DNA of 64,000 nt, from positions 298,929-362,928 of the forward strand of contig JAGOPK010000005.1 in the NCBI GenBank assembly GCA_017992055.1, in the 5' to 3' direction. Below are positions 2,366-11,845 of this stretch, piece by piece. The notes under the pieces were generated by a model. The model was not told the DNA's origin, ran no database searches, and was given only the letters and a program-made list of their open reading frames with translations. Numbering within the stretch: position 1 is the stretch's first letter; the number at the start of each line of letters is the position of its first letter. The DNA comes from Burkholderiaceae bacterium. GTDB lineage: Bacteria > Pseudomonadota > Gammaproteobacteria > Burkholderiales > Burkholderiaceae_C. A program made the translations under genes and the position numbers.

Positions 2366-4729
2366 CTACGCGACGAAGCCCATGCGCTGCAGCAGCGCCT
2401 GCGTGGTGGCCAGCTGCTGGCGCAGGCGCTGGGCGGCGGCGGCGGACTGCTCGGCGCTCCAGCCGGGGCCGTCGGTCTCGATCTGGCGCGCCGCATCGCG
2501 CAGGCCACGCAGGCCCAGGCTGGCGGCGCTGCCCTTGATGGCATGGGCCAGGGCCTTGAGCTCGGCGCCGCGGCCCTGGTCCAGCGCCGCCAGCAGCGCC
2601 GCCTGGTTGCCGGACTCGTCGGCAAAGAAGCCGGCCAGCACCAGGCGGTAGCCGGCCATGCCGATGCCCACGCAGACCTCGCCGACCACGGCCATGTCCA
2701 GCTGCGCGGCCACGTCGGCGGCCTTGAAGCGGCGGCGCGGCGCGGCGGCGGATTCGGCGGTGGCGGTGGCGGGCACGGAGGTGGGGACAGGGCGGGGCAA
2801 GGCAGGCACCGGTTCGGGCACCGGCGGCGGCGGCAGCCGGGCCAGCATGGCCTGGATATCGTCAGGATCGACCGGTTTGCTGAGGAAATCGTTCATGCCG
2901 GCGGCGATGGCGGTTTGGCGGGTTTCGGCAAAGGCGTCGGCGGTCAGCGCCACCACCGGCAGCTGGCCGGCCGGCGGCGGCAGGGCGCGCAGCCGGCGCG
3001 TGGTCTCCAGGCCGTCGAGCACCGGCATGTGCAGGTCCATCAGCACCAGGTCGGGCAACTGGCCGGGCGCGGCCTGCTGCACTGCGGCCAGCGCCTGGGC
3101 GCCGTCGTTGACCAGCTGCACCTGGTGGCCGAGCTGCTCCAGCAGCATGCCCATGAAGCGGCGGTTGACCGGGTGGTCGTCGGCCACCAGCAGGCGCAGC
3201 GGCCTCGGCGGGACCGTGGCCGGCGGCGGCGGGGCCGCAACGGCTGCGGCGGCGGCCGGGATCGCTGGCGCCGCAGCGACCGGCGGCGGCTCCGGACACA
3301 CCGGCAGCACCAGGCGCAGCACGAACAGCGAGCCCTCGCCACGGCGGCTCTGCACCTCGATGTCGCCGCCCATGCGCCGTGCCAGGTTGCGCGAGATCTC
3401 CAGCCCCAGGCCGGTGCCGCCATAGCGCCGCGAGCTGCTGGCATCGCCCTGGGTGAAGCGCTGGAACAGCCGCGACAGCAGGCGTTCGTCGATGCCGATG
3501 CCGGTGTCGCGCACCTCGAAGCGCAGCCGGCAGGCGCCGGTGGGCGCGGCCGGCAGGCCCGGGCCGTCGTCGCGGCGCAGCGTCAGCGTGACGCCGCCGC
3601 GCTCGGTGAACTTGACCGCGTTGGACATCAGGTTGAACAGGATCTGGCGCAGCCGCTGGCCATCGGCCACCACGCCGGCCGGCAGGTCCTCGCCCAGGCT
3701 GACGCCCAGCGTCAGGCCCTTGTCCAGCGCGCCGGGCGCCATCAGCGCACGCACCTCGTCGACCAGGCGCGGCAGCGACAGCGGCCCGGCCACCATGTCC
3801 AGCCGGCCGGATTCGAGCTTGGAGATGTCCAGGATGTCGTTCAGCAGGGCCAGCAGATGCGTCGCCGATTCGCGCGCGGTGCGCAGCTGCTCGGCCTGGC
3901 GTGCGTCCAGCGGGCTGCGCTCCAGCAGCGACAGCATGCCCAGCATGCCGTTGAAGGGCGTGCGCAGCTCGTGGCTCATGTTGGCCAGGAAGGCGCTCTT
4001 GGCCTGGCTGGCGCCCTCGGCCTCCAGCCGCGCCTGGTGCAGGTGCTGGGCCAGGTCCTCGGCCTCCTGGCGGCGCCGTGTCAGGGCCTTGAACTGGCGC
4101 GCCGTCAGCACCGCGAAGGCCAGCGTCAGCAGGCTCTGGAACAGCGTCACGCCGATGCCCCAGCGGCTCTGGTCGCGCACCGCGTCGTTGCGGCGGGCGA
4201 TCTGGTCGGCGACGATCTGGTTGGCCAGCAGGGTCAGGTCGTGGATGGGCTCCAGCATCTGCTCCAGCTCGGCGCCGATGGCCGCCAGGCGCTCGGTCGG
4301 GATGGCGCCACGCGCCTGCTCGGACAGCACCGGGTCGTGGCGCGCCAGGAACTCGCGCAGCGCCTGGATGGTGCGCTCGTGGCCGGCGCCGATGTCGACG
4401 ATGTCGCGCGTGTGCGAGGGCTCGACCAGCGGCAGCCGGCTGGCGAACAGCTCGTAGCGGAAGCGCAGCGCCTCGCTGCGGTCGTGCTGCGGATGGCGCA
4501 GCGCGTCGCGCACGCCGTCGCGCAGCTGCATGTACTCGTTTTCCAGCTGGAAGAAGCTCCAGACCAGGTTGTCGCCCTCGTAGCGCACATGGCTGGACAG
4601 CAGGTTGATCTGCCGCCACTGGATCCAGGCCACGGCGGCAAAGGCGGCCATCAGGCCGGCGCCGATCAGCCACAGCCAGGGCTGGCGCAGGCGCCAGCCG
4701 CGTGCCGCGCTGGCCGGGACCTGCCTCAC
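2366..4729 (-). CDS. Hybrid sensor histidine kinase (HisKA-HATPase-REC-HPt), copy 1 of the PruR-type pair
   Basis: 787 residues. TM1 ~18-36, a ~150-residue periplasmic helical sensor carrying FFQLENEYMQLR (59-70), TM2 ~190-210, a coiled linker, HisKA with His253 (ANMSHELRTPFNG), HATPase (DTGIGI, GGTGLGLEI), a Pro/Ala linker, REC with Asp565 (LVLMDLHMP) and HPt with His729 (HAIKGSAASLG). It is a complete His-Asp-His relay with no output domain. GTG start at 4729 gives a 4-base GTGA overlap with the upstream PruR-like gene. The longer in-frame upstream extension would lie antisense-free but inside that gene and is rejected. A paralogue lies at 9024-11336. Confidence 0.93.
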   Translation of the reverse strand: MRQVPASAARGWRLRQPWLWLIGAGLMAAFAAVAWIQWRQINLLSSHVRYEGDNLVWSFFQLENEYMQLRDGVRDALRHPQHDRSEALRFRYELFASRLPLVEPSHTRDIVDIGAGHERTIQALREFLARHDPVLSEQARGAIPTERLAAIGAELEQMLEPIHDLTLLANQIVADQIARRNDAVRDQSRWGIGVTLFQSLLTLAFAVLTARQFKALTRRRQEAEDLAQHLHQARLEAEGASQAKSAFLANMSHELRTPFNGMLGMLSLLERSPLDARQAEQLRTARESATHLLALLNDILDISKLESGRLDMVAGPLSLPRLVDEVRALMAPGALDKGLTLGVSLGEDLPAGVVADGQRLRQILFNLMSNAVKFTERGGVTLTLRRDDGPGLPAAPTGACRLRFEVRDTGIGIDERLLSRLFQRFTQGDASSSRRYGGTGLGLEISRNLARRMGGDIEVQSRRGEGSLFVLRLVLPVCPEPPPVAAAPAIPAAAAAVAAPPPPATVPPRPLRLLVADDHPVNRRFMGMLLEQLGHQVQLVNDGAQALAAVQQAAPGQLPDLVLMDLHMPVLDGLETTRRLRALPPPAGQLPVVALTADAFAETRQTAIAAGMNDFLSKPVDPDDIQAMLARLPPPPVPEPVPALPRPVPTSVPATATAESAAAPRRRFKAADVAAQLDMAVVGEVCVGIGMAGYRLVLAGFFADESGNQAALLAALDQGRGAELKALAHAIKGSAASLGLRGLRDAARQIETDGPGWSAEQSAAAAQRLRQQLATTQALLQRMGFVA

Positions 4730-5250
4730 TTCACCTCGAGCGTGCGCAGCTGCCAGGCCGAGCGGGCGTAGTAGCGCTCCTGGCGCAGCTCGGCGCTGTC
4801 GTCGAAGGGGTAGACGATGAACAGCGGCCCCTTCTCGCGCACCGTCATCGCCTGGCCGTCCAGGCGCGTGGCCAGCAGCATGCCGAACTGCTCGGCGTCG
4901 GCGGCCGGGATCTCGATCTTGTAGCTGTTCAGCGCGATCGCCTTCAGCACCGTGCCCTTGGCGCCGGCGGCGGCCAGCACCTCGCGCAGCAACGGGCCGC
5001 TGAACTGGCGCCGCTCCTTGAACCAGGGCGTGGCGGTGGTGAAGCGGTGCTGGGGCAGGGCCTCCAGCATGGCCATGTCGAAGTCGGCGCGGCGGCCGCC
5101 GTCGGCATTGCCGGCGCTGACCTGGCCGGTGATCGACAGCAGCACGCGGCCCTTGGGCCGGTCCAGTGCCAGCGCCGGCAGCGCCGGCAGGCCCAGCAGG
5201 GAAGCCAGGGCGGAACACAGCAGGCTGCGGCGGGAGCGGACGGAGGGCAT
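4726..5250 (-). CDS. PruR-like periplasmic pterin-binding (molybdopterin-domain) protein, copy 1
   Basis: 174 residues with an N-terminal signal (SRRSLLCSALASLLG, ending ALA-L) that has a twin arginine. The body shows the small standalone oxidoreductase-molybdopterin-domain pattern: VLLSITG, FDMAMLEALPQ, TPWFKERRQFSGPLLREVL, ALNSYKIEIP, MTVREKGPLFIVYPFD, YYARSAWQL. The mature part has no cysteine, so the molybdenum-liganding Cys of sulfite-oxidase enzymes is absent, which points to binding rather than catalysis. Known relatives such as Agrobacterium PruR bind pterins and control a membrane partner encoded next door. Here the partner is a hybrid kinase overlapping by 4 bases. Confidence 0.82.
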   Translation of the reverse strand: MPSVRSRRSLLCSALASLLGLPALPALALDRPKGRVLLSITGQVSAGNADGGRRADFDMAMLEALPQHRFTTATPWFKERRQFSGPLLREVLAAAGAKGTVLKAIALNSYKIEIPAADAEQFGMLLATRLDGQAMTVREKGPLFIVYPFDDSAELRQERYYARSAWQLRTLEVK

Positions 5251-11336: not shown

Positions 11337-11845
11337 GACACCTCGATGCTCTGCAGTTGCCAGGCGCAGCGGCTGTAGTAGACCGCGTTGCGCAGTTCCG
11401 GATGGGCGTGGAAGGGGTAGATGATGAACAGCGGCCCCTTGTCGCGCACGGCCATCGGCTTGCCGTCGAGCAGGCGCGCCAGCAGCACGTCGTAGCGGCG
11501 TGCGTCCTCGCTGGGGATGTCGACGAAGTAGTTGTTCAGCGCCTGGGCGCGCAGCAGCTGGCCCTGGGCGCCGGCGGCGGCCAGCACATCGCGCAGCAGC
11601 GGGCCGGTGAACTGCCGCGGCTGGCGGTACCAGGGCGTGGTGGTGCTGAACTGCTGCTGCGGCAGCCGCTCCAGCATGGCCATGTCGAAGGCCGCGGCCG
11701 CCGGCCGATTGGTGTGGCGCACGCCGCCGGTCACGGTCAGCAGCACCGGGCCGCTGGGTGGGTCCAGCGGCATGGCCAGGGCGGGTGTGCTGCAACCCAG
11801 CAGCAGCGGCCAGCGGGCCAGACCCAGGAGTGAACGGCGATCCAT
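11333..11845 (-). CDS. PruR-like periplasmic pterin-binding (molybdopterin-domain) protein, copy 2
   Basis: 170 residues, paralogue of the gene at 4726-5250. Signal MDRRSLLGLARWPLLLGC, cleaved near ALA-M, again with a twin Arg near the N-terminus. Shared blocks are FDMAMLERLPQQ, TTPWYRQPRQFTGPLLRDVL, ALNNYFVDIP, MAVRDKGPLFIIYPF and YYSRCAWQLQSIEV. The single mature Cys is near the C-terminus, where copy 1 has Ser, so it is not a conserved metal ligand. Start ATG at 11845 was chosen because upstream in-frame codons read through non-signal sequence. It is translationally coupled to the downstream kinase. Confidence 0.82.
   Translation of the reverse strand: MDRRSLLGLARWPLLLGCSTPALAMPLDPPSGPVLLTVTGGVRHTNRPAAAAFDMAMLERLPQQQFSTTTPWYRQPRQFTGPLLRDVLAAAGAQGQLLRAQALNNYFVDIPSEDARRYDVLLARLLDGKPMAVRDKGPLFIIYPFHAHPELRNAVYYSRCAWQLQSIEVS

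Follow-up and report, generated by a model that had tools for sequence, protein, structure and literature searches.

The window analyzed here is a 64,000-nucleotide stretch of a Burkholderiaceae bacterium (assembly GCA_017992055.1, contig JAGOPK010000005.1, positions 298,929 to 362,928), and it carries two two-gene units, copies A and B, each joining a small protein of the pterin-binding PruR family to a hybrid histidine kinase. Coordinates and strands of both units, as given in a preliminary description of this DNA, proved correct on re-reading. The murB, binding-protein, and chemoreceptor genes that it placed between the pairs were likewise confirmed. The features are as follows.

4726..5250, minus strand: pruR A, 174 amino acids; predicted periplasmic pterin-binding protein with a twin-arginine-like signal, SRRSLLC, and pocket residues N108, Y110, and W166.
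2366..4729, minus strand: kinase A, 787 amino acids; two predicted transmembrane helices around a DcpA-type sensor with WX7E, followed by HisKA-HATPase-REC-HPt.
4088..4690, minus strand: sensor region of kinase A; predicted helical bundle with two long terminal helices.
11333..11845, minus strand: pruR B, 170 amino acids; PruR fold with W162 kept, Cys160 nearby, and a twin-arginine-like signal, DRRSLLG.
9024..11336, minus strand: kinase B, 770 amino acids; domains as in kinase A, sensor with LX7E rather than WX7E.
10701..11297, minus strand: sensor region of kinase B.
1817..2317, minus strand: yajQ, encoding a YajQ family cyclic di-GMP-binding protein; recurrent neighbor, functional link unproven.
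5359..6411, plus strand: murB; syntenic landmark between the pairs, outside the module.
6422..7309, minus strand: substrate-binding protein, between the pairs.
7452..9020, plus strand: chemoreceptor, between the pairs.

Both kinases start with GTG and overlap the TGA of the upstream pruR by 4 bases; at the pruR A/kinase A junction this GTGA overlap was read directly in the DNA. A promoter scan found nothing. Across the genome itself (99% complete), profiles of two rows each, one of PruR (E ≤ 0.001) and one of the sensor (E ≤ 0.01), returned only the window's two places, while the Pfam molybdopterin domain matched pruR B and three other places and missed pruR A.

Both small proteins belong to the PruR family. 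In a search of PDB sequences, the PruR of Agrobacterium tumefaciens (7kos) was matched by copy A at E = 7e-39 and by copy B at 3e-36; for each copy, the next three matches were entries titled pterin-binding or molybdopterin-domain, named PruR in the structure comparison. An AlphaFold model of PruR B (predicted local distance difference test [pLDDT] 91.2) superimposes on Klebsiella pneumoniae PruR with neopterin (7rkb) at a root-mean-square deviation of 0.8 and a TM-score of 0.98 by target length. The pocket residues listed for A. tumefaciens PruR in the accessible text of a recent review are N102, Y104, and W160 (PMC13259868); their equivalents are N108/Y110/W166 in copy A and N104/Y106/W162 in copy B. 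Across the 92 PruR rows kept for trees and pocket counts after removal of 10 duplicate contigs, Asn and Trp are invariant (92/92 each) and Tyr is found in 88, with Phe in the other 4. Lengths of 174 and 170 amino acids, with N-terminal secretion signals judged by pattern only, agree with the ~170 amino acids and exported start typical of PruR.

That these proteins are instead molybdenum enzymes of the sulfite-oxidase family is scarcely credible. Such a reading can draw on the PF00174 match, which is marginal (20.4 bits for copy A and 24.5 for copy B; cutoff 24), but the position of the Mo-liganding Cys is occupied by Trp in both copies, as in PruR, the mature protein is short, and sulfite oxidases fit the PruR B model far more poorly than PruR structures do. 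The PDB matches, the copy B model, and the pocket residues thus bear out the earlier placement in the PruR family. The accompanying statement that a conserved metal-liganding Cys is missing also stands, with the nuance that copy B has C160 two residues before the pterin-site Trp. Cys occurs at this position in 21 other rows too, and a redox role for it is possible.

The partner of each PruR is a phosphorelay-type kinase, as first described. HisKA, HATPase_c, Response_reg, and Hpt all score over their Pfam cutoffs in both proteins, and by eye the relay motifs are intact: SHELRTP at the phosphorylated His, LMDLHMP/LMDVHMP at the Asp, and AHAIKG/AHAVKG at the HPt His. Neither kinase gave a Pfam match for a GGDEF-EAL output of the DcpA kind. 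The best-scoring NCBIfam kinase model for both was the TorS equivalog TIGR02956. This top rank is the likeness to TorT–TorS; the scores (378.3 and 373.6 bits) stay below the cutoff of 676.5, and the partner is PruR rather than a TorT-type protein.

The N-terminal 200 residues of kinase A were modeled as a helical bundle whose long terminal helices are predicted to cross the membrane (pLDDT 92.9). When sensors of 16 kinase partners, kinase B included, were aligned with those of eight GGDEF/EAL partners—all from other genomes, with A. tumefaciens DcpA itself outside the alignments—hhalign returned a probability of 99.2% (E = 2e-19, 186 columns). Judged by this profile alignment, the kinase-partner sensor is homologous to the periplasmic domain of PruR's GGDEF/EAL partners. 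The same domain (4088-4690 and 10701-11297 in the window) is widespread yet has no plausible Pfam family: a search with 42 members gave four families at E 0.002–0.01, one member each and unrelated-looking. Against PDB sequences the best match reached E = 0.02, and none was convincing.

Copies A and B both combine a two-gene operon with a kinase bearing a DcpA-type periplasmic domain, the arrangement named PruR-DTB (DcpA-TorS-BaeS). As set out in the accessible text of the review by Rucker, Augusta, Fuqua and Allen (2026; PMC13259868), the PruR-linked regulator in these systems is a TorS/BaeS-like sensor kinase, and up to four such systems occur in single taxa. The preliminary description had contrasted the kinase partner with the known PruR/DcpA system; kinase pairs and several copies per organism being published, that contrast is already in print, and a departure from what is known is not supported. 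PruR-DTB shares with the window pairs a PruR, a kinase with a DcpA-type domain, the two-gene operon, several copies per genome, and a modular REC. It differs in that copy B lacks the Trp of WX7E; as for vocabulary, HPt, phosphorelay, and twin-arginine are absent from the accessible text of the review, and HD-GYP appears in one general sentence (PMC13259868). A. tumefaciens PruR–DcpA shares the PruR fold and pocket, the homologous type of sensor domain, and the gene order, whereas its output is GGDEF-EAL and that of the window pairs is a kinase relay. Added or corrected here, beyond the review, are the old lineages, the motif variant of copy B, and the HD-GYP and twin-arginine leads.

The pairing recurs across genomes, a check that the preliminary description had proposed. 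Genomes with a PruR-like gene at E ≤ 0.001 numbered 16 of 21 in the genus, 130 of 299 in the family, and 67 of 398 in the phylum, the window's own genome and weak matches counted. Gene neighborhoods were read in two samples. The beta set comprises 79 loci, drawn from the best 80 of 529 relatives by similarity to the window PruRs, together with genus and family stretches; it is mostly Burkholderiales but also holds Chitinimonas, a Pseudogulbenkiania metagenome-assembled genome (MAG), and two MAGs labeled Opitutaceae. The 48 other rows are 40 picked stretches from the phylum search (same-order genomes supplied two, L235 and L238) and 8 picked plasmid stretches. Short loci (L088-L136 and L164-L192) were left out of the analysis. 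The trees used 89 sensors beside the 92 PruR rows (L053, L072, and L085 having no sensor), and the partner, motif, neighbor, HD-GYP, and signal counts were made with 11 duplicates removed, L065 being the additional one.

In 86 of the 91 beta-set rows, pruR is followed by a kinase gene (HPt is present in 36, and a contig end truncates 6 of these 86); the same holds for 38 of the 48 others. A GGDEF protein takes this place in none of the 91 and in 8 of the 48; the remaining partners (5 beta and 2 other rows) are cut, missing, or unclassified. The sample is biased toward relatives of the window PruRs and partly hand-picked, and these proportions are therefore no census.

Plasmid records also hold PruR–kinase pairs, under generic names. 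PruR-like matches occur in 645 such records, 265 of them from Klebsiella; in the sole enterobacterial plasmid neighborhood read (E. coli plasmid pFZ11, L239), the PruR-like gene adjoins an annotated hybrid kinase. In a Curvibacter MAG (L053:6848-10450), a large HD-GYP gene precedes pruR by 15 bases, and a kinase gene following pruR was not found. HD-GYP was considered as the partner of this PruR and set aside, the gene having proved upstream of pruR; the order is possibly a third arrangement.

Taken with published work, these data make it likely that both units are pterin sensors of the PruR-DTB type. Computed here are the PruR family and fold, the pocket residues, the DcpA-type sensor, the intact relay motifs, the gene coupling, and the co-occurrence; pterin binding, docking, and control of activity would follow by analogy with PruR–DcpA. 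In the mechanism we propose, PruR would be exported and would hold a pterin, probably reduced, in its truncated sulfite-oxidase fold. It would dock on the helical-bundle periplasmic domain of the co-translated kinase, and docking would shift the kinase/phosphatase balance. Phosphate would then travel along a His-Asp-His path, from HisKA to REC to HPt and on to an unlinked response regulator. The pterin input into a His-Asp relay anticipated in the preliminary description thus keeps its place as a prediction, given a PruR-family protein with a kinase partner.

Several observations weigh against this reading. The sensor of kinase B is without the Trp of WX7E, though PruR B retains the pterin-pocket residues, and no response-regulator gene was seen beside either window pair. 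In favor of the reading, the genome encodes a candidate pteridine reductase with TGGARRIG and YTLSK (PruA motifs TGX3RXG and YX3K) that scores over the PRK09134 cutoff (311 vs. 281), a short-chain dehydrogenase/reductase (SDR) model with no named substrate; against it, the protein falls below the NCBIfam "pteridine reductase" cutoff (193.6 vs. 288 bits), and the motif was checked in only 8 of 57 SDR matches.

WX7E is conserved in the vast majority of PruR partner sensors, not in all, according to the accessible text of the review (PMC13259868). Kinase A has it as WSFFQLENE; kinase B has LNLYQVETE, and copy B is therefore a variant rather than a strict PruR-DTB member. Trp is present in 43 of 44 other sensors (35/36 of kinase type and 8/8 of GGDEF type) and in 44 of 88 beta-set sensors, which otherwise have Leu (22), Ala (12), His (5), Arg (2), Pro (2), or Ile (1). 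The motif Glu is found in 85 of 88 beta rows (Asp in 3), in 8/8 GGDEF rows, and in 27 of 36 other kinases, where Asp (5), Gln (2), and Ala (2) make up the rest. Within the copy B clade, 30 of 31 rows replace Trp by Leu, His, Arg, or Ile, L154 alone keeping it. Clade counts of 22 Leu and 22 Cys had suggested a coupled change, Trp to Leu in the sensor and Ser to Cys in PruR. This candidate was dropped: row by row, 8 of the 22 Leu rows pair with Ser, Cys goes without Leu in 8 of its 22 rows, and independent pairs gave no support for coupling of sensor Trp loss with the PruR Cys.

The loss of this Trp in copy B bears on a different mode of action, in which PruR is an accessory protein whose docking is itself the signal—of envelope state, for example—with pterin serving a structural purpose or missing, especially in copy B. 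We consider this quite unlikely. It would parallel QseE, which QseG binds and activates according to the accessible part of the source (PMC12691602), and QseE in the QseG–QseE complex was the best Foldseek match, a weak one, of the kinase A sensor model (E = 5.5e-3, probability 1.00; none below 0.001). With VIA-align, QseE, NarQ, designed bundles, and G-protein-coupled receptors were mixed at tied Z, and the QseE match is a hint at how the modeled sensor may act rather than at kinship. What the two systems share is an accessory protein in the periplasm that acts on a kinase sensor built as a helical bundle (PMC12691602, accessible part). QseG differs in being an outer-membrane lipoprotein. It is not known to be related to PruR or to have a small ligand.

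The two copies are old, separate lineages with orthologues elsewhere, not products of a recent local duplication. In the PruR tree, copy A belongs to a starred set of 6 rows and copy B to one of 31, likewise starred; the sensor tree recovers the same two sets, with L026_A next to copy A's. Forcing the copies together cost 181 log units for the sensor (approximately unbiased [AU] test, p-AU = 1.6e-6) and 48 for PruR (p-AU = 0.0015). Local tandem duplication followed by divergence, as the preliminary description suggested, is therefore very improbable. Its attractions are the shared orientation of the two pairs, their 6.6-kb spacing, their ~75% DNA identity in blocks, and their position on either side of murB, but the separate starred clades and the rejected sisterhood oppose it, as does the finding of both lineages in no more than 3 of the 21 genomes of the genus, counting the window's. 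The other two are G004, where they share a contig, again around murB, and G012, where they lie on different contigs; in record L026, both are recognized from the sensor tree alone. An ancient duplication at some point in their descent may nonetheless have occurred. Copies A and B are 57% identical in PruR, 43% in the kinases, and 31% in the sensor regions, and perhaps they are tuned to different pterins, redox states, or interfaces.

Around these lineages, the murB–yajQ region is a repeated home of PruR–kinase pairs. In the window, yajQ follows kinase A in the same orientation, with 48 bases between the two. Of 91 rows, 30 have yajQ downstream on the same strand at a distance of up to 6 kb, and 34 have murB no farther than 6 kb away; downstream DNA extends to 8.5 kb in only 66 of these rows. 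Two other neighbors were rejected as parts of the module: a substrate-binding protein is near 3 of 91 rows, two of which are the window itself, and a chemoreceptor is near few. The best NCBIfam match of the substrate-binding protein at 6422..7309 is a putative selenate-transporter model (TIGR04553, 401 bits; cutoff 250).

A gene for a REC-HD-GYP protein, of cyclic di-GMP phosphodiesterase type, adjoins 15 of 118 complete PruR–kinase pairs, in Acidovorax, Chitinimonas, plasmids of Rhizobium, Agrobacterium, and Aureimonas, and two genomes from the phylum search. Pfam confirmed receiver and HD domains in all four scanned of the 15, plus a fifth from L137. None of the 36 HPt-bearing kinases has such a neighbor, and 67 of the 82 kinases without HPt also lack one. 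On a simple reading, some kinases without HPt use the adjoining regulator and HPt kinases a remote one; that the remote regulator of the window kinases is also a cyclic di-GMP enzyme is a guess. It is possible, though we would not expect it, that the last partner in the relay is an HD-GYP response regulator whose gene lies elsewhere, in which case kinase and DcpA pairs would both act through one second messenger, cyclic di-GMP. The adjoining REC-HD-GYP genes and the recurrence of yajQ point this way; against it stand the HPt-bearing kinases, the chance that murB–yajQ is merely a conserved site, and the nonindependence of related rows. In G004 (L137:7170-12785), a Pfam-confirmed REC-HD-GYP gene lies between the two pairs, along with, by eye, a PAS-type kinase, a further REC protein, and an HDOD-type protein.

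A second lead concerns export. Both PruR copies have RRSLL ahead of a hydrophobic stretch. Twin-arginine-like signals, defined as RR-x and then two residues that are mostly hydrophobic or small, occur in 47 of 72 parsed beta-set PruRs, both window copies among them, and in 0 of 30 parsed others, with 19 of 91 beta and 18 of 48 other rows unparsed; same-order L238, in the other set, has a related start, KRQFL. A cruder count gave 23/56 beta-set PruRs vs. 10/331 other signal-like open reading frames of the same loci, and 0/25 other PruRs vs. 2/73 controls; this control relies on a regular expression in place of SignalP, and by it 35 of 91 beta and 23 of 48 other PruRs showed no signal. TatC is present in the genome.

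Pfam and NCBIfam include models of the twin-arginine translocation (Tat) signal. These matched 0 of 9 PruRs in Pfam and 0 of 5 in NCBIfam, which counts against the lead. It is further weakened by kinship among the rows, and the label changes 9 times on the tree. Within the copy A set of six, three carry the motif (WIN_A, L137_A, and L007, with L137_A doubtful) and three do not (L008, L009, and L141, the start codon used being uncertain for some of these).

Should export run through Tat, PruR could exit the cytoplasm in folded form, already holding its pterin. We regard it as rather doubtful, but conceivable, that in Burkholderiales-type bacteria PruR is Tat-exported preloaded with reduced pterin and so carries the pterin signal across the membrane. 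Each exported molecule would then report the cytoplasmic pterin redox state to an outward-facing kinase, and copies A and B would report different pterins or states. The word twin-arginine does not occur in the accessible text of the review (PMC13259868), and a literature search for PruR with twin-arginine or pterin-binding returned no paper title on that subject.

For PruR biology, two diverged pairs side by side in one genome offer a natural setup for decoding pterin and partner specificity. The kinase/HD-GYP branch, if true, would join pterin redox sensing to cyclic di-GMP by phosphorelay, besides DcpA. The passage of pterins to the periplasm is called unknown in the accessible text of the review, and Tat use, if true, would bear on that question (PMC13259868); the twin-arginine-like signals on PruRs of the beta set make this gap simply testable.

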